Shown: piece by piece, positions 27,527-34,077 of the stretch
Layout of the letters: every line of letters begins with the position of its first letter
How positions within the stretch are numbered: the first letter of the stretch is position 1
NCBI RefSeq assembly: GCF_000426825.1
Contig: NZ_AUGC01000001.1
Coordinates: 62,001-126,000, forward strand
Direction of reading: 5' to 3'
Length of the DNA stretch: 64,000 bases
Origin: Thermonema rossianum DSM 10300
Lineage (GTDB): Bacteria; Bacteroidota; Bacteroidia; Cytophagales; Thermonemataceae
Program-made: the position numbers and the translations under genes
Notes under the pieces: model-generated
The model's input: the letters and a program-made list of their open reading frames with translations, nothing else
Database searches by the model: none
What the model was told of the DNA's origin: nothing

Positions 27527-27634
27527 CGTCCCTGCAAATGGTTTGGTTTTGAGAAACACAAAGATAAGCAAGCCGGTGGTATTCAAAGCGTGTGATGTGC
27601 CATTTGATATAGGATGATGAAAATCAGCGGATAT

Positions 27635-27648
27635 ATGACGAAGGTCAT
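27635..27648. promoter_or_regulatory. CRP/FNR-geometry palindrome upstream of the nos cluster
   Basis: ATGAC-N4-GTCAT is a perfect 5-4-5 inverted repeat centred about 61 bp before the cytochrome c start codon. The 14-bp geometry is that of FNR and DNR/NnrR boxes (TTGAT/TTGAC-N4-ATCAA/GTCAA). If it is a class II site at -41.5, transcription would begin near 27683. No regulator of this family is encoded in the window. Confidence 0.4.
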
Positions 27649-27702
27649 TGGTGCAGAAATGAAAAAAGGATAAGATTGTCTATAAATAAAACCAAAAGAC
27701 CT

Positions 27703-28191
27703 ATGAAAAGACACTTCATTTTGACTATCGCGGCAATGACCCTCGGTCTGTTGATGTTTGCCTGCGGCGGGCAGGAGGAAAATACTGCTCAGAACAACGA
27801 ACCACCTCAAAGCATGTTGGCTGACGAAGAGCCGGCAGAAAATGAAGCGCCGGACCCCATGACCGTGAAAGGGGTAGGACCGGTGCAAAGCATTGAGTTG
27901 GGAGAAATAGACCCTGCTATGGCAGAGGAAGGAAAAATGCTGTTTGAATCCAAGTGTTCTGCGTGTCATAAGATAGGCGAAGAATACATTGGTCCGGACT
28001 TGAAAGGCGTAACCGCCCGGCGGGCACCGGAGTGGATTATGAACATGATACTCAATCCGGAAAATATGGTAAAAGAAGACCCCATAGCCAAAGAGCTATT
28101 TGCAAAGTTTAACGGTACACCTATGGCCAATCAGGGCTTAACAGAGGAAGAAGCACGCAAAATATTGGAATACTTCCGCACACAAGAGTAG
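27703..28191 (+). CDS. Lipoprotein monoheme cytochrome c, nos-linked
   Basis: A 162-residue lipoprotein cytochrome. The start was chosen at MKRHFILTIAAMTL, giving a signal peptide with lipobox LMFAC (Cys21). An acidic Pro/Glu-rich linker (25-60) precedes a single class I cytochrome c domain: CSACH (Cys85, Cys88, His89) binds heme and Met141 in GTPMANQG is the probable sixth ligand. It is anchored to the periplasmic face of a membrane. It lies 31 bp before nosZ, so it is the obvious candidate electron donor to N2O reductase. The gene begins the nos transcript, just after the FNR-like palindrome. Confidence 0.9.
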   Translation: MKRHFILTIAAMTLGLLMFACGGQEENTAQNNEPPQSMLADEEPAENEAPDPMTVKGVGPVQSIELGEIDPAMAEEGKMLFESKCSACHKIGEEYIGPDLKGVTARRAPEWIMNMILNPENMVKEDPIAKELFAKFNGTPMANQGLTEEEARKILEYFRTQE

Positions 28192-28222
28192 GTTTTAACT
28201 GTACGAAAAACAACATAGAGGT

Positions 28223-30202
28223 ATGAATGCGAAAATTAAAAAACTATTGGTAGCAGGGCTCGCTACGGCACTGGTGAGTGCCTGTGGCGAATCTAAAAAG
28301 GGGGATTCCAAGCAGGAAACCGCCCTTAATACAGATGCTGCATCAAAAGTATATGTAGCTCCCGGGAAGCATGATGAATTCTACTTATTTACTTCCGGAG
28401 GATTTAGCGGGCAAGTAGGGGTTTATGGCTTGCCTTCCGGGCGCTTGTTCCGGGAAATCCCTGTCTTCTCGCAAGACCCCGAAACAGGCTATGGTTACAA
28501 TGAAGAAACCAAGCCTATGCTTCAAACCAGCTATGGCTTTGTTCCCTGGGGAGATGCACACCACCCCAAGCTGTCTCAAACGGACGGTAAGCATGATGGG
28601 CGCTGGTTGTTTATCAACGAAAACAACACGCCACGCATTGCCCGTATTGACTTAACTACTTTTGAAACAGTAGAAATTATTGAAATACCGAATGCGGGCG
28701 GTAACCACTCTTCGCCTTATGTAACCCAAAATACCGAATATGTCTTTGCCGGTACCCGTTTTAGTGTACCTATACCTCAAAAAGATGTGCCCATCGATTC
28801 TTACAAAGAAAACTTTAAAGGGACTCTTAGCTTCATAAAAGTAGAAAAGGAAAGCGGTGACATGAGCTTGGCTTTCCAAATATTGGTGCCCGGTTATGAC
28901 TACGACCTGGCTACCGGGGGTAAAGGACCTTCTCATGGATGGGCATTCTTCTCTACTTATAACACAGAGCAGGGATATACACTAAAAGAGAAAACCGCTT
29001 CGCAAAATGACAAAGACTATGTGGCGGCTGTCAATTGGAAAAAAGCTGAGGAATATATAGCCCAGGGTAAATACCAGGAATGGGATGTGGAATATTACAA
29101 CAATGAGTATGACGAAGAAAAGCACATGGCTACTTCTAAGGTAGAGAAAAAAGTAAAAGTGCTTATCCCGGCGGAGTGCCCCGGTTTAATTTACTACCTG
29201 CCTACGCCTAAGTCGCCACATGGTATAGATGTAGATCCTTCCGGAAAATATATTGTAGCCAGTGGAAAACTTTCGGCAGATGTAACCGTACATTCATTTG
29301 AAAAAATACAAGAAGCCATTGAAAATGGCGATATCATTGGTGAAGTGGATGGTATCCCCGTACTGAACCCCGAGAAAACAGTAGTTGGTGTCGTGAAATC
29401 GGGTGGTTTAGGGCCTTTGCATACCGAGTTCGATGACAAAGGTTATGCTTATACCTCCTTCTTCATCTCTTCTGAGATTGTGAAATGGAAGTTGGGTACG
29501 TGGGAAGTTGTAGACCGTATTCCTACTTATTATTCTATTGGACACCTGTGTGTACCCGGTGGTGGTTCCATGCATCCGTGGGGCAAGTACGTGATAGCTT
29601 TGAACAAAATAACCAAAGACCGTTACTTACCTACCGGACCTGAATTGACTCAATCGGCTCAATTGATTGATATTTCAGGAGAAAAAATGGAGTTGCTGCT
29701 TGACTTCCCCACGGTAGGTGAGCCGCATTATGCACAAGCCATCCCCGCAGAAATACTGGCTCCGCGTTCGAAGAAAGTATTTAAGCTGGAAGACAACAAG
29801 CACCCCTATGCCGTGAAAAGCGAAGCAGAAGCAAGAGTGGAGCGCAAGGGCAACGAAGTGCATGTGTACATGACTACCATTCGTAGTCACTTCTCACCGG
29901 ACTTTATCGAAGGGGTTAAGGTAGGCGATGTTGTTTATTTCCATGTTACCAACTTAGAGCAAGACTGGGATATTCCGCACGGCTTTGCTGTGATGGGTGC
30001 CAACAATGCCGAGCTGCTGATAATGCCCGGACAAACCGAAACACTCCGCTGGGAGCCGAAGAAAGCAGGGGTATATCCATTCTATTGCTCCGACTTCTGC
30101 TCTGCGCTTCATCAGGAAATGCAAGGTTATATACGCGTTTCTGAAAAAGGCAGCAATGTGCCTCTCAAGTGGGGACTGGGCGAAAGTAAAGAAGAAAAAT
30201 AA
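28223..30202 (+). CDS. nosZ: Nitrous oxide reductase NosZ, clade II, Sec-exported lipoprotein type
   Basis: NosZ reduces N2O to N2 in the periplasm. The 659-residue protein has a Sec lipoprotein signal (ALVSAC, Cys21) instead of the twin-arginine signal of clade I. Seven CuZ ligands can be placed: His113 and His114 (DAHHPKL), His162 (GGNHSSPY), His333 (SPHGID), His400 (GPLHTEFD), His441 (SIGHL) and His502 (GEPHYA). The CuA domain has His586 and FYCSDFCSALHQEM with Cys622, Cys626, His630 and Met633. The Trp of the clade I CxWFC motif is Asp here, typical of clade II and tolerable because the ligand is a backbone carbonyl. All copper ligands are intact, so it should be functional. A 24-nt palindrome follows the stop. 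Confidence 0.97.
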   Translation: MNAKIKKLLVAGLATALVSACGESKKGDSKQETALNTDAASKVYVAPGKHDEFYLFTSGGFSGQVGVYGLPSGRLFREIPVFSQDPETGYGYNEETKPMLQTSYGFVPWGDAHHPKLSQTDGKHDGRWLFINENNTPRIARIDLTTFETVEIIEIPNAGGNHSSPYVTQNTEYVFAGTRFSVPIPQKDVPIDSYKENFKGTLSFIKVEKESGDMSLAFQILVPGYDYDLATGGKGPSHGWAFFSTYNTEQGYTLKEKTASQNDKDYVAAVNWKKAEEYIAQGKYQEWDVEYYNNEYDEEKHMATSKVEKKVKVLIPAECPGLIYYLPTPKSPHGIDVDPSGKYIVASGKLSADVTVHSFEKIQEAIENGDIIGEVDGIPVLNPEKTVVGVVKSGGLGPLHTEFDDKGYAYTSFFISSEIVKWKLGTWEVVDRIPTYYSIGHLCVPGGGSMHPWGKYVIALNKITKDRYLPTGPELTQSAQLIDISGEKMELLLDFPTVGEPHYAQAIPAEILAPRSKKVFKLEDNKHPYAVKSEAEARVERKGNEVHVYMTTIRSHFSPDFIEGVKVGDVVYFHVTNLEQDWDIPHGFAVMGANNAELLIMPGQTETLRWEPKKAGVYPFYCSDFCSALHQEMQGYIRVSEKGSNVPLKWGLGESKEEK

Positions 30203-30220
30203 GCATGTTCTTTAACACAT

Positions 30221-30244
30221 CACCGGAGGCAGCTGCCTCCGGTG
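30221..30244 (+). promoter_or_regulatory. 24-nt perfect palindrome (hairpin) after nosZ
   Basis: A perfect palindrome with left half CACCGGAGGCAG can fold into a G/C-rich hairpin with about 10 stem pairs and an AGCT loop. It lies 18 nt after the nosZ stop and is followed by TTTAAT rather than a long T run. It may be a leaky terminator or a 3'-end stabiliser setting nosZ mRNA above the accessory genes. Confidence 0.7.
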
Positions 30245-30261
30245 TTTAATCAAACGGTACA

Positions 30262-30900
30262 ATGATGACAACTGTATCTTCTACTTCTGCGTCCACCCGG
30301 CAACATCGTTTAAGCTTGCCGGTGCGCATAGCCCTGGCAGCGGTGGTGGTGGCGATGATTATTTCTTTCCGCTATCCGATGTGGAGCATTTACTTGGATG
30401 CACCTCAGTATCCGGAAGGCATTAAAATGGAAATATGGTATGACAATGTGGGGGGCGACGACCCAAGCGTGCTGCAAAATGTGAATCTTTTGAATCATTA
30501 TATTGGTATGAAGCCCATTGAACCGGATGCCATTCCGGAGTTGCGATGGATGCCCTATATCGTATGGGGGTTGATTATCGTAGGTGCAGTATGTGTCATT
30601 AGTGGCAGCTTTCGCCTTTTGGTAACTTGGGCAGTTTTATTTACGCTCTTAGCCGCAGTGGGGCTCTACGATTTTTACCTTTGGGAGTATGATTATGGGC
30701 ATAATTTGGACCCCGAAGCGCCCATCAAAGCTTTGGATTCCTATCAACCACCTTTAATTGGCAGTAAGCAGCTGTTGAATATTACCGCTACTTCATTACC
30801 CGACATAGGAGGAGTGATTCTGATTGCCGGACTGACTGTCATTTATTTGTGCATTATATGGGAATGGATAAATAGAAAGAAGTCTTATGGTGTGGCTTAG
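30262..30900 (+). CDS. Four-helix membrane protein of unknown function in the nos cluster
   Basis: A 212-residue inner-membrane protein. TM1 is about 20-38, a 55-residue non-cytoplasmic loop (DAPQYPEGIKMEIWYDNVGGDDPSV ... LNHYIGM) follows, then TM2 (about 96-116), TM3 (about 117-138), a second acidic and Tyr-rich loop, and TM4 (about 184-204). Genes of this type sit between nosZ and nosL in Bacteroidota nos clusters as far as I recall, and the position parallels nosB of other clade II clusters, but homology to NosB is not established. His and Met residues near the loops (NHYIGMKP) could bind copper; that is speculation. It overlaps nosL by 14 bp. Confidence 0.75.
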   Translation: MMTTVSSTSASTRQHRLSLPVRIALAAVVVAMIISFRYPMWSIYLDAPQYPEGIKMEIWYDNVGGDDPSVLQNVNLLNHYIGMKPIEPDAIPELRWMPYIVWGLIIVGAVCVISGSFRLLVTWAVLFTLLAAVGLYDFYLWEYDYGHNLDPEAPIKALDSYQPPLIGSKQLLNITATSLPDIGGVILIAGLTVIYLCIIWEWINRKKSYGVA

Positions 30901-31330
30901 AAATAAAACCGTTTGGTTCTTGGTAAGCTGGGGTTTTTTCTCCGGCTGCAGCGTAGAACCGGTGCCTATTCAATACGGGGCAGATTATTGCGATTTCTGC
31001 AGGATGACCATCGTGGATAAACGTTATGCGGCTGAATTGGTAAACACCAAAGGGAAGCCTTATAAGTTTGATGCCATTGAGTGTATGTTGCGCTATGCTG
31101 CCGAGTCGGAGCAGACATTTCAGTTGTGGTTGGTGAACACCTACGATAAGCCGGGGCAGCTGGTAGATGCATCAAAAGCGTGGTATCTCATTAGCGAGCA
31201 GTTGCCAAGTCCTATGCGTGGTGACATCAATGCCTTTTCCACCGAAAAAGTACGTGATGAGTTTCATCAAAAATACGGTGGCGATAAAAAAACATGGATT
31301 GACCTGAGAGAAGCATATGAAGTGCAATAA
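30887..31330 (+). CDS. nosL: NosL copper-binding accessory lipoprotein
   Basis: A 147-residue periplasmic lipoprotein with lipobox FFSGC (Cys21). The NosL motif GADYCDFCRM (Cys35, Cys38, Met40) binds Cu(I), which NosL delivers for assembly of the CuZ/CuA sites of NosZ. FDAIECMLRY and VDASKAWYL match the conserved NosL core. It overlaps its upstream neighbour by 14 bp and nosD by 14 bp, so translation is coupled within the cluster. Confidence 0.93.
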   Translation: MVWLRNKTVWFLVSWGFFSGCSVEPVPIQYGADYCDFCRMTIVDKRYAAELVNTKGKPYKFDAIECMLRYAAESEQTFQLWLVNTYDKPGQLVDASKAWYLISEQLPSPMRGDINAFSTEKVRDEFHQKYGGDKKTWIDLREAYEVQ

Positions 31331-32570
31331 CCACAGATGGATACTTTTTATATGGACGATTGTATGCTTGGCAGCTCCTGCAAAAGCAGAGTTGATTGTC
31401 GTTTGCAAGAGTTGTGAGCTAAGCTCTATAAAGGAAGCGGTGGCAGCCGCGCAACCTTGTGATACCGTACTGATTAAAAAAGGCACCTACTACGAACATG
31501 GTATTGTTGTAGATAAATCTTTGTACGTGTTGGGCGAAAAAGGGAGTGTGATTGATGCGCAACAGCGTGGTGAAATTATTTTAGTTACGGCCGATAATGT
31601 TTGGGTGGAAGGGCTCACTCTTCAAAATGTGGGCGTTAGCTACTTACAGGATTGGGCAGCTATCCGGATATTGGAAGCCGCCGTCTGCGTAGTGAAAAAC
31701 AATCATATTATTAACCCTTTCTTCGGGATATATCTGCAACAAGCACGCTACTGTACAGTTGAGAACAACCGGCTGCAATCCTCCGCAGCGAGAGAGATGT
31801 CTTCCGGCAATGCCATTCACTCTTGGTACTCAGAGCACCTGCGTATCATACATAACGAGGTCAGCCACTTCCGCGATGGCATCTATCTTGAATACACAAC
31901 CGACAGCGAAATCACTCATAACCATGCGTATCAAAACCTGCGTTATGGGCTTCATTTCATGTTTTCGGATAACAACCGTTATCAGTATAACCGTTTCAGT
32001 GAGAACGGTGCCGGTGTGGCGGTAATGTTTTCTCGTAATGTGGTGATGGAATACAACGAATTTATACACAATTGGGGGGCAGCAAGCTACGGTCTGTTGT
32101 TAAAAGAAATTTACGATGCCCGCATAGAACACAACATGTTTCAGGAAAACACAACTGCCGTACATGGAGAGAGCGCTACACGCATTCTTTTCCGCTACAA
32201 TCAGTTAAACAACAACGGCAAGGGCTTTATGCTCATGGGCAGCTGCATGGATAATGTTTTTGAATATAACGTTATGGAAGGCAATACTTTTGATGTGGTG
32301 GCAAGCAGCGAGCTGCAGAGCAATGAGTTTAGATATAACTATTGGGCGAACTACTCCGGCTATGACCTTGACCATGATGGCATTGGTGATGTACCTTACC
32401 GTCCTGTCTCTTTGTATTCCTACATTGTGAATCAATCGCCCACTACCATACTGCTGTTAAGAAGTTTTTTTGTGGATGTACTCAATTACACAGAGTATTT
32501 GATGCCTTTTTTCACACCTGATAATGTAAAAGACAACTATCCTCTTATGACACCGCCTTTAAACACATAA
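31317..32570 (+). CDS. nosD: NosD periplasmic copper-cluster maturation protein
   Basis: A 417-residue secreted protein with signal peptide (cleavage near AKAEL, about residue 24) and a right-handed parallel beta-helix built of PbH1/CASH repeats (about 60-345). Typical rungs are NNHIINPFFGIYLQQ and SRNVVMEYNEF. The NosD signatures SGNAIHSWYSEHL, LRYGLHFMFSDNN and FRYNYW..YSGYDLDHDGIGDVPYRP are clear. NosD receives copper from NosL and passes it to NosZ, powered by NosFY. The start overlaps nosL, and nosF begins 3 bp after the stop. Confidence 0.94.
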   Translation: MKCNNHRWILFIWTIVCLAAPAKAELIVVCKSCELSSIKEAVAAAQPCDTVLIKKGTYYEHGIVVDKSLYVLGEKGSVIDAQQRGEIILVTADNVWVEGLTLQNVGVSYLQDWAAIRILEAAVCVVKNNHIINPFFGIYLQQARYCTVENNRLQSSAAREMSSGNAIHSWYSEHLRIIHNEVSHFRDGIYLEYTTDSEITHNHAYQNLRYGLHFMFSDNNRYQYNRFSENGAGVAVMFSRNVVMEYNEFIHNWGAASYGLLLKEIYDARIEHNMFQENTTAVHGESATRILFRYNQLNNNGKGFMLMGSCMDNVFEYNVMEGNTFDVVASSELQSNEFRYNYWANYSGYDLDHDGIGDVPYRPVSLYSYIVNQSPTTILLLRSFFVDVLNYTEYLMPFFTPDNVKDNYPLMTPPLNT

Positions 32571-32573
32571 TTT

Positions 32574-33311
32574 ATGATAGAGCTACTGGATATATCGAAG
32601 CGCTTCGGTAAGACGCAGGTATTGAAAAACATATCCATATCTTGGCAAGAGCCGGGCATTATGGTGTTGGTAGGTCCTAACGGTTCCGGCAAGACCACCC
32701 TCTTGAAGATGTTATTGGGGATGGTGTTGCCTTCTTCCGGTAAGATTCTTTTCGATGGGCAGGACATACGCAAATCCGGGGCCGCTTATAAAAGCAATAT
32801 TAGCTATTTGCCACAGCTGGCTCACTATCCTGAAAACCTAAGTGGCAGAGAGCTGATTCAAATGGTAAAAGAGTTGCGGGGCAATATCAATCAAGAATTA
32901 TTGAACCGCATGTTGAAAGGGTTTCAGCTTGAAAGTCACCTGGACAAGAAGGTGAAACACCTGTCCGGTGGTACTTTGCAAAAGTTAGGTATTGTATTGG
33001 CTTTTATGAATGAAGCAGCTGTGTATGTATTGGATGAACCAACCAATGGCTTGGATCCCCTTTCGCTTTTTTATTTGAAAAAGTTGATACTCGAAAAACG
33101 GGAAGAAGGAAAATACATACTCATTAGTACGCATATTATTCCTTTTGTGGAAGAAATTGCGGACCGCTTGCTTTTTATATTGGAAGGTAGCGCTTTCTTT
33201 GACGGCACCCTTGCCCACCTGCGCGATACTTACGGCGAAGCATCCCTGGAAGAAATTGTGGCTAAAGTAATGGAATCTCAAATCGGCATGACTCATGTGG
33301 AAAGTATTTAA
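32574..33311 (+). CDS. nosF: NosF ABC transporter ATPase
   Basis: A 245-residue ABC ATPase. Walker A GPNGSGKTT, Q-loop in SYLPQLAHYP, signature LSGGTLQK, Walker B VYVLDEPTNGLD and switch His in LISTHI are all present. With NosY it forms the membrane motor that drives NosD for copper-site assembly of NosZ. It is placed 3 bp after nosD and overlaps nosY by 17 bp. Confidence 0.95.
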   Translation: MIELLDISKRFGKTQVLKNISISWQEPGIMVLVGPNGSGKTTLLKMLLGMVLPSSGKILFDGQDIRKSGAAYKSNISYLPQLAHYPENLSGRELIQMVKELRGNINQELLNRMLKGFQLESHLDKKVKHLSGGTLQKLGIVLAFMNEAAVYVLDEPTNGLDPLSLFYLKKLILEKREEGKYILISTHIIPFVEEIADRLLFILEGSAFFDGTLAHLRDTYGEASLEEIVAKVMESQIGMTHVESI

Positions 33312-34077
33312 ATATACCGTTTATGATTTGCTGCGTAGCAAGTGGACTTTCGCTTACGCCTTGTTCTATTTTGCGCTCACTGTCTTTTTGTTTGCTTTCA
33401 GCAGCAGCATAACCAAGGTAGTAGTAGGTTTAATGAATACTATTTTGCTGCTTGCGCCGTTAGTAAGTACTTTTTTTACCGTCAGCTATTATTACAACTC
33501 GAAAGATTTTGTTCTTTTTCTTTTGGCACAACCGCTGAAAAGAACGGATATTATCCGCGGTATGCTGTTGGGGCTGACGGCTTCTTTAGGTATTGCCGTG
33601 TTGGTGGGGATTGGAATGCCCTTCGCCTACATGTCTTTGACACAAGGAAGTTCTATAGCAAGTTATGCTTTCTTGTTGGTAATAGGGGTGATACTCTCTT
33701 CCGTGTTTTCTTTTATTGTGTATTGGATAGCCCTGCGTTTCGACGATAAACTAAAAGGCATTGGGGTTAGCTTACTTGTATGGTTATTTTTTGCCGTTAT
33801 TTATGATGCCATTTTCCTTTTGCTGTTAATTTACCTTCGCGACTATCCCATAGAAAAACTGGCAATAGCTCTGACATTACTCAACCCCATAGATCTGTCG
33901 AGGGTGTTTATTTTGCTTCAGCTCGATATATCCGCTCTGTTTGGTCTTACAGGGGCGTCTGTAAAAGCTTTTTTGGGCAGCACCACCGGCAGCATAGCAA
34001 CATTTGTCGCTTTGTTGTTATGGATGCTCCTTTCTTATATCGGCATTACTGTCATGGCTAAAAAGAAAGATTTTTAA
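33295..34077 (+). CDS. nosY: NosY ABC transporter permease
   Basis: A 260-residue membrane protein with six predicted helices, starting MWKVFKYTVYDLLRSKW, in the ABC-2-like permease pattern. The short sequence FLLAQPLKRTDIIRG after TM2 is the typical coupling-helix region, and LLNPIDLSRVF is conserved in NosY. It is the membrane partner of NosF and docks NosD. It is the last gene of the cluster. No nosR, nosX or nosC homologue follows it in the window. Confidence 0.92.
   Translation: MWKVFKYTVYDLLRSKWTFAYALFYFALTVFLFAFSSSITKVVVGLMNTILLLAPLVSTFFTVSYYYNSKDFVLFLLAQPLKRTDIIRGMLLGLTASLGIAVLVGIGMPFAYMSLTQGSSIASYAFLLVIGVILSSVFSFIVYWIALRFDDKLKGIGVSLLVWLFFAVIYDAIFLLLLIYLRDYPIEKLAIALTLLNPIDLSRVFILLQLDISALFGLTGASVKAFLGSTTGSIATFVALLLWMLLSYIGITVMAKKKDF

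Follow-up and report, generated by a model that had tools for sequence, protein, structure and literature searches.

A stretch of 64,000 nucleotides from the Bacteroidota bacterium Thermonema rossianum DSM 10300 (assembly GCF_000426825.1, contig NZ_AUGC01000001.1, positions 62,001 to 126,000; hereafter the window) very probably carries a complete clade II nitrous oxide (N2O) reductase (nos) operon, which lies behind a predicted class II FNR-like promoter in an organism for which no pathway from nitrite to N2O was found. N2O, or laughing gas, is a greenhouse gas, which N2O reductase converts to nitrogen. Read from its coordinates and family matches, window segment 27703-34077 is a complete and compact clade II operon for a cytochrome c, NosZ, NosB, NosL, NosD, NosF and NosY, the seven genes being arranged head to tail, as an initial annotation of the window had described, with overlaps of 14, 14 and 17 bp and gaps of 31, 59 and 3 bp (Table 1). 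The cytochrome c gene starts at an ATG at 27703, with a longer frame running from a TTG at 27676.

The assignment of NosZ to clade II, likewise proposed at the outset, is supported by its score of 952.3 bits against the Sec/clade II model TIGR04246 (cut-off 625), as compared with 392.7 bits against the Tat/clade I model TIGR04244, which is below the cut-off of 625. It is also supported by a tree of 35 rows, including 29 of the 81 other clade II rows, in which the clade II rows, that of the window among them, are split with 100/100 support from five clade I or archaeal plasmid NosZ sequences. The window NosZ adjoins the main Bacteroidia group (91/96, under the program's mark for firm support), a position in line with vertical descent. 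The residues that serve as copper ligands were mapped onto NosZ through an alignment of the window protein with those of 80 named relatives, the copy on Hymenobacter sp. DG25B plasmid NZ_CP010056.1 (L119) and five clade I or archaeal plasmid copies; the seven CuZ histidines and the CuA His, Cys, Cys, His and Met are all present, and all ligands are kept in 82/82 clade II rows (window included) and in 5/5 clade I/archaeal rows. The N-terminus, MNAKIKKLLVAGLATALVSAC, judged by reading the sequence, has a lipobox, its signal ending ..LVSAC, and no twin arginine. Thus both the Sec lipoprotein signal and the set of copper ligands ascribed to NosZ in the initial annotation are confirmed. Because no more than 41 of 80 NosZ fit a strict lipobox pattern, the signal cysteine was counted instead; at least one Cys precedes the mature protein in 82/82 rows, six of which are ambiguous (five with two Cys, and L063, the start of which is wrongly extended). 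As a separate observation, residue 624 (window 30092-30094), a CuA-loop position, is Asp in all 82 clade II rows, the equivalent residue being Trp in four of the five clade I/archaeal rows and Phe in the fifth; Asp at this position is a possible clade marker.

Profile searches of the whole T. rossianum assembly (2.95 Mb, 24 contigs, 97.52% complete) for NirK (TIGR02376), NirS (PF02239) and NrfA (PF02335) gave no match, and no nirK, nirS or norB was seen among the reading frames of the window, where their absence had first been remarked. Both PF00115 (COX1) genes of the genome were considered as nitric oxide (NO) reductases and rejected; by reading of the sequence, one is next to a CoxB-like subunit II frame, indicating an aa3-type oxidase, and the other encodes a fusion of CcoN and CcoO that bears the haem site GCNNCH, indicating the cbb3 type. 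Thus norB was not found in the genome either, the searches not extending to flavodiiron and HAO-type enzymes, nitrate reductases, nirBD or Hcp. The earlier suggestion of a non-denitrifying N2O consumer is supported by these negative results. That T. rossianum is instead a partial denitrifier, with nir or nor genes in the missing 2.5% of what is a draft assembly in 24 contigs, is improbable, the NirK, NirS, NrfA and NO reductase searches all being negative. PMC11409646 defines a non-denitrifying N2O reducer as having nosZ without norB/C and nirK/S, a class that T. rossianum fits as far as the assembly reaches. The same source counts 144 non-denitrifying clade II metagenome-assembled genomes (MAGs), 77.1% of them Bacteroidota, and assigns to Bacteroidota 70.6% of the nosZ clade II MAGs in one large wastewater genome set. 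In silico, T. rossianum reads as a non-denitrifying N2O reducer of a known kind.

The initial annotation began the cluster at 27635, which coincides with the palindrome ATGAC-gaag-GTCAT, and mentioned no promoter. TGAC-N4-GTCA occurs once in the 64 kb, at about chance frequency, but the one copy is located at nos. Upstream regions of 80 nos loci were compared, i.e. those of 78 named loci (L037 and L084 being dropped for too little upstream sequence), the Hymenobacter plasmid and the window. A TGAY-N4-RTCA box is present in 46 of these 80 regions, as against a mean of 2.35 after an approximate dinucleotide shuffle, 146 of 3544 windows drawn at random and 17 of the 232 stretches tested ahead of other open reading frames (ORFs; Fisher p 1.4e-19 for nos versus other ORFs, relatedness ignored). 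At a start exactly 35 bp after that of the box, TAnnTTTG, the Bacteroidota -7 element, is found exactly at 23 of 50 box sites and with at most one mismatch at 33 of 50, the window included; the other 57 offsets tested average 0.02 (exact) and 0.4 (at most one mismatch) occurrences. The composite, TGAY-N4-RTCA-N23-TAnnTTTG, is present with at most one mismatch in 35/80 nos regions, compared with 0.05 after single-base shuffling and 0/666 background windows (one masked). The second palindrome in the window, TGATGAAAATCA, fits the composite only on the minus strand and with two mismatches, about chance level, and the Hymenobacter plasmid operon, which has its own crp/fnr gene, has no composite with at most one mismatch, its best having three. 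Two other box forms were tried and rejected, namely the classic TTGAY-N4-RTCAA box (2/80 nos regions; shuffle mean 0.15) and the CRP form TGTGA-N6-TCACA (0/80). A palindromic box at a fixed distance before a -10/-7 element matches the layout of a class II Crp/Fnr-activated promoter, as is predicted here; with -12 taken as the start of the -7 element, the centre of the box would fall at -41.5, the class II activator position.

Promoters of the FNR/DNR/HcpR type, as described in PMC1274295, share the inverted TGA(C/T)-N4-(A/G)TCA half-sites before nitrogen-oxide genes, including FNR-like boxes before nosZ in proteobacteria. By contrast, the nos boxes studied here mostly have A/T on the outside (often TATGAY...RTCATA) rather than the TTGAY...RTCAA form, and they are paired with a TAnnTTTG element that follows after a constant gap of 23 bp. 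The nearest precedent for clade II nos genes is Nitrosophilus labii HRV44, a member of the Campylobacterota. Candidate Crp/Fnr boxes were suggested upstream of its clade II nos genes, as for T. rossianum, using a TTGA-N6-TCAA consensus with up to two mismatches, exact boxes being 48-49 bases before the predicted starts of napA, norE and nosB and nosZ itself, in the available part of the report, having inexact boxes only; N. labii differs in its phylum and in that the same part describes neither a TAnnTTTG partner nor a fixed spacing (PMC11539149). Crp/Fnr control of nos is already known; what appears to be new is the Bacteroidota composite and its spread, no description of this promoter, or of the switch for Bacteroidota nos genes, having been found in the titles and starts of abstracts of the papers listed by searches of the open PMC literature.

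The composite extends well beyond nos. Across 52 relatives belonging to the same order and class, 295 exact sites were found, compared with 12 for a reversed control pattern, and 49 of the 52 genomes have at least one; 215 of the sites are in the 32 genomes with nos and 80 in the 20 genomes without. The T. rossianum genome has three exact and five one-mismatch sites, i.e. eight compared with three in the control, and these precede genes for a metallo-beta-lactamase/rhodanese protein, a 72-aa membrane protein (by eye), Usp, the nos operon, FeoA, a bacterial globin, a CcoI-like metal P-type ATPase and one doubtful frame (L162). Composite loci were inspected at 38 places (eight in T. rossianum, 30 in relatives), and 17 downstream proteins, picked by eye and hence not a fair sample, were compared with Pfam. 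Matches in the relatives were to COX1 (two), Usp, the nos cytochrome c, CcmE, S30AE, a radical SAM protein (HemN-like by eye) and a pyridine nucleotide oxidoreductase; two of the 17 have no match (L163, and L156, a short frame behind one of the T. rossianum sites) and two are below cut-off (L171 and L175). This gene set resembles an FNR/Anr low-oxygen regulon. A scan of the genome with the box only gave 25 places, each on both strands, versus 13 for the control, 13 of the 25 being inside frames of at least 90 aa.

It is very unlikely that the box and its spacing to the -7 element result from common descent of the promoter DNA and not from an activator site that functions. Among the nos regions, composite carriers are mostly Bacteroidia, many of them Flavobacteriaceae, which favours ancestry (with locus titles grouped by hand, Bacteroidia 30/45, unresolved 3/9, other classes or phyla 1/24, plus the window), but across loci the spacer and flanks are free to vary while the box, distance and -7 element stay constant, and the exact composite, in excess of its control in the relatives, stands before unrelated genes at the inspected loci.

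As to the activator, two T. rossianum proteins match HTH_Crp_2 over the cut-off, with three weaker matches. One, 345 aa long, is a receiver-cNMP-HTH_Crp hybrid (G000:C4:63425-64462; L126 426-1463), of a type widespread among the relatives (Bacteroidia), and the other is a plain Crp protein of 237 aa. In the 18 genomes that have a full-length hybrid and at least one site and for which the site listing is complete (others with a full-length copy being excluded), 25 of the 97 exact composite sites are within 20 kb of the hybrid gene, compared with about one expected, clustered sites not being independent; at least one site is within this distance in 12 of the 18. The recognition helix reads E-S/T-x-I/S-R in all 16 copies read, of 20, and resembles the E..R of FNR. 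Within 2.5 kb around the T. rossianum receiver-Crp gene no composite with fewer than two mismatches was found. Other observations argue against the hybrid as sole factor. Two siteless genomes (G072 and G122, excluded from the proximity set) have the hybrid but not the exact composite, and composite sites are present too in some genomes where all Crp matches are stand-alone. Because one genome (G041) has three composite sites and no hybrid match, the hybrid is a candidate activator only, and the proximity is not proof.

A mechanism may be proposed in which NosZ, as a lipoprotein on the periplasmic side, would reduce N2O to N2, with electrons probably arriving via the product of the operon's first gene, the lipoprotein cytochrome c, a candidate donor. 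NosD, NosF and NosY would provide the needs of CuZ assembly, NosL would deliver copper, and NosB is the membrane accessory protein of clade II. A dimer of a Crp/Fnr-family activator would bind TGACGAAGGTCA, centred near -41.5, beside the weak -7 element, transcription most likely starting there in the class II FNR-like manner, and the nos operon would thereby be induced together with a low-oxygen (cbb3-type) respiratory set.

It is rather unlikely that the operon serves NO/N2O detoxification or electron dumping rather than respiration and is induced by NO through a DNR/NNR/HcpR-like Crp/Fnr regulator. In favour of such a role, a Ric (iron-sulphur repair) homologue is present in 18 of 80 named nos loci (two partial), being no more than about 2.6 kb upstream of nosZ in nine of these, and the order on the Hymenobacter plasmid is ric - crp/fnr - nosZ. 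The TGAC half-site is also that of the published HcpR motif TTGACnnnnGTCAA (PMC1274295), and N2O use uncoupled from growth is reported for Flavobacterium azooxidireducens. However, the same composite precedes COX1-family oxidase, Usp, CcmE and radical SAM genes elsewhere, which argues for low oxygen rather than NO alone, and it occurs also in genomes without nos (the 80 sites in 20 genomes noted above).

Several points weigh against the preferred reading, i.e. a complete clade II operon with a class II FNR-like promoter in an organism for which no nitrite-to-N2O pathway was found. With the genome 97.52% complete, a nir or nor gene may have been missed. At one mismatch or fewer, 45 of the 80 nos upstream regions are without the composite, and the window's own -7 element carries one mismatch. 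With eight sites versus three in the control, the single T. rossianum composite sites are not each certain, and no composite with fewer than three mismatches was found in 4.3 kb around ccoNO, the cbb3 gene. The electron path is a guess, because no NosG/C/H electron module was seen in the operon.

Table 1. Promoter elements and genes of the nos operon (positions are those of the window)
Feature	Position	Strand	Evidence
Second, weaker Crp/Fnr-type palindrome TGATGAAAATCA	27615..27626		Sequence
Crp/Fnr-type box TGACGAAGGTCA	27636..27647	+	Only TGAC-N4-GTCA in the 64-kb window; box class enriched before nos
TAnnTTTG-like element TAAGATTG, one mismatch	27671..27678	+	35 bp after box start
Lipoprotein cytochrome c, one CxxCH haem site	27703..28191	+	PF00034 43.7 bits (cut-off 21.3)
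nosZ, clade II Sec-dependent lipoprotein N2O reductase	28223..30202	+	TIGR04246 952 bits; tree; ligands
nosB, accessory protein with four transmembrane helices	30262..30900	+	LNHYIGM and YGHN motifs; nosZ co-occurrence; model pLDDT 93.7
nosL, copper lipoprotein chaperone	30887..31330	+	PF05573 48.5 bits (cut-off 24)
nosD, periplasmic beta-helix maturation protein	31317..32570	+	TIGR04247 402 bits (cut-off 300)
nosF, ABC ATPase	32574..33311	+	PF00005 (ABC_tran) 102.7 bits (cut-off 25); position and order
nosY, ABC permease	33295..34077	+	PF12679 (ABC2_membrane_2) sub-threshold, 18.9 bits (cut-off 27.2); position, order, homologues at the same place

The four-helix protein encoded directly downstream of nosZ had been labelled unknown, a label rejected here on the basis of published NosB motifs and co-occurrence with NosZ; from its sequence the protein at 30262-30900 is NosB, as described for flavobacteria. 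The two conserved NosB stretches, LNHYIGM and YGHN, given in PMC9697520 are both present (residues 77-83 and 145-148), and the model has four transmembrane (TM) helices. A NosB homologue was found in 103 of 296 Bacteroidota genomes, T. rossianum counted, and in a sample of 60 of the 103 NosB-positive and 20 of the 193 NosB-negative genomes NosZ is above cut-off in 59/60 and 0/20, respectively. Of the 80 named nos loci, 66 have a separate NosB and 12 a fusion of NosB to NosL; in the remaining two, both with little downstream sequence, NosB was not found. The sole sampled NosB-positive genome without NosZ over the cut-off (G004) has an orphan homologue of 28% identity (L125 3952-4599, minus strand, on G004:C18) that keeps LNHYLGM and SYGHS, and the neighbours of which are an Rrf2 regulator, a hemerythrin-domain protein, a polytopic 4Fe-4S protein (NapH-like by eye) and a Ric-like protein (by eye). 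This copy suggests that NosB may act outside N2O reduction. On a Natronorubrum aibiense plasmid (L120) a NosB-like frame, also of 28% identity, starts at the end of a Tat-dependent archaeal nosZ and extends past it.

An AlphaFold2 model of NosB (mean pLDDT 93.7, pTM 0.86), made with 53 aligned sequences from the 66 separate NosB plus that of the window, fusions and long frames being omitted, has the order TM1, two strands, a short helix bearing LNHYIGM, TM2, TM3, two strands and TM4. The best 50 rows of a Foldseek search of the PDB are all claudin, TARP/GSG1L/GARLH, MP20 or DUOXA1, alone or in complexes, with a best E of 2.2e-3, none at 0.001, and TM-scores of 0.33-0.46 on the query; DUOXA1 is an NADPH oxidase maturation factor. 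The best 50 rows from VIA are of the same claudin, TARP, MP20 and DUOXA1 types, including a TARP with the best Z (11.3, 150 aligned residues, 3.9 A) and a designed claudin fold (Z 10.6). The topology is tentatively predicted to be claudin/TARP-like, although Z values below about 13 can reflect an arrangement common among helical proteins. Asn78, His79, Tyr80, Gly82, Met83, Glu93, Asp137, Trp141 and Gly146 are invariant in 53/53 NosB, position 147 being His in 50/53; these conserved residues are candidate contact or copper residues.

With respect to gene order, 80 named nos loci of relatives were sampled. The order nosB, nosL, nosD, nosF, nosY after nosZ is present in 70 of the 71 with all five downstream genes, the single exception (L044) being taken as a start-codon artefact; eight of the other nine are cut by contig ends, and for L069 no NosY match was found in 8 kb of sequence around the locus. 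A cytochrome c homologue is within 3 kb upstream of nosZ in 68/80 loci, and immediately before it in 42/80. The nos cluster is thus ordinary for Bacteroidota, a new example of a well-known kind, because its gene order and the co-occurrence of NosB and NosZ are standard in relatives. The Hymenobacter plasmid has a complete clade II nos cluster, with ric and a Crp/Fnr regulator gene before nosZ.

The Wolinella succinogenes clade II nos operon likewise has NosZ then NosB, with NosD, NosF, NosY and NosL as in T. rossianum. By contrast, the NosG, C1, C2 and H module was not seen in T. rossianum, which has a lipoprotein cytochrome c before nosZ instead. Flavobacterium azooxidireducens IGB 4-14 and its relatives share with T. 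rossianum a clade II Sec NosZ followed by NosB (or a NosB-L fusion), NosL, NosD, NosF and NosY in the same order, a nos cluster with no other denitrification enzymes, and LNHYIGM and YGHN in NosB, which is annotated as hypothetical in some strains. In the type strain NosB and NosL are fused, whereas in T. rossianum they are separate genes with a 14-bp overlap (PMC9697520, which also cites the need for NosB in W. succinogenes and in its available part gives no description of the promoter).

It is conceivable, though we hold this with somewhat less than even confidence, that the observations belong together in an undescribed Bacteroidota FNR-like regulon with a hard-wired class II promoter, TGAY-N4-RTCA-N23-TAnnTTTG, that couples N2O reductase to genes for cbb3-type oxidase, stress and cofactors. 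In T. rossianum this regulon would be run by the receiver-cNMP-HTH_Crp hybrid, with phosphorylation, not an iron-sulphur cluster, setting the activity of the hybrid, and NosB would be a claudin-fold protein docking on, or maturing, NosZ.

Further work is most worthwhile on the conserved promoter, the regulator candidate and the NosB fold, the promoter layout, though common to many relatives, being less ordinary than the gene set. The work on the promoter yields a regulator candidate that is open to testing, and a promoter signature readable from sequence, in genomes and metatranscriptomes, would help to predict whether such bacteria are an N2O sink in micro-oxic water or only where nitrogen oxides are present.

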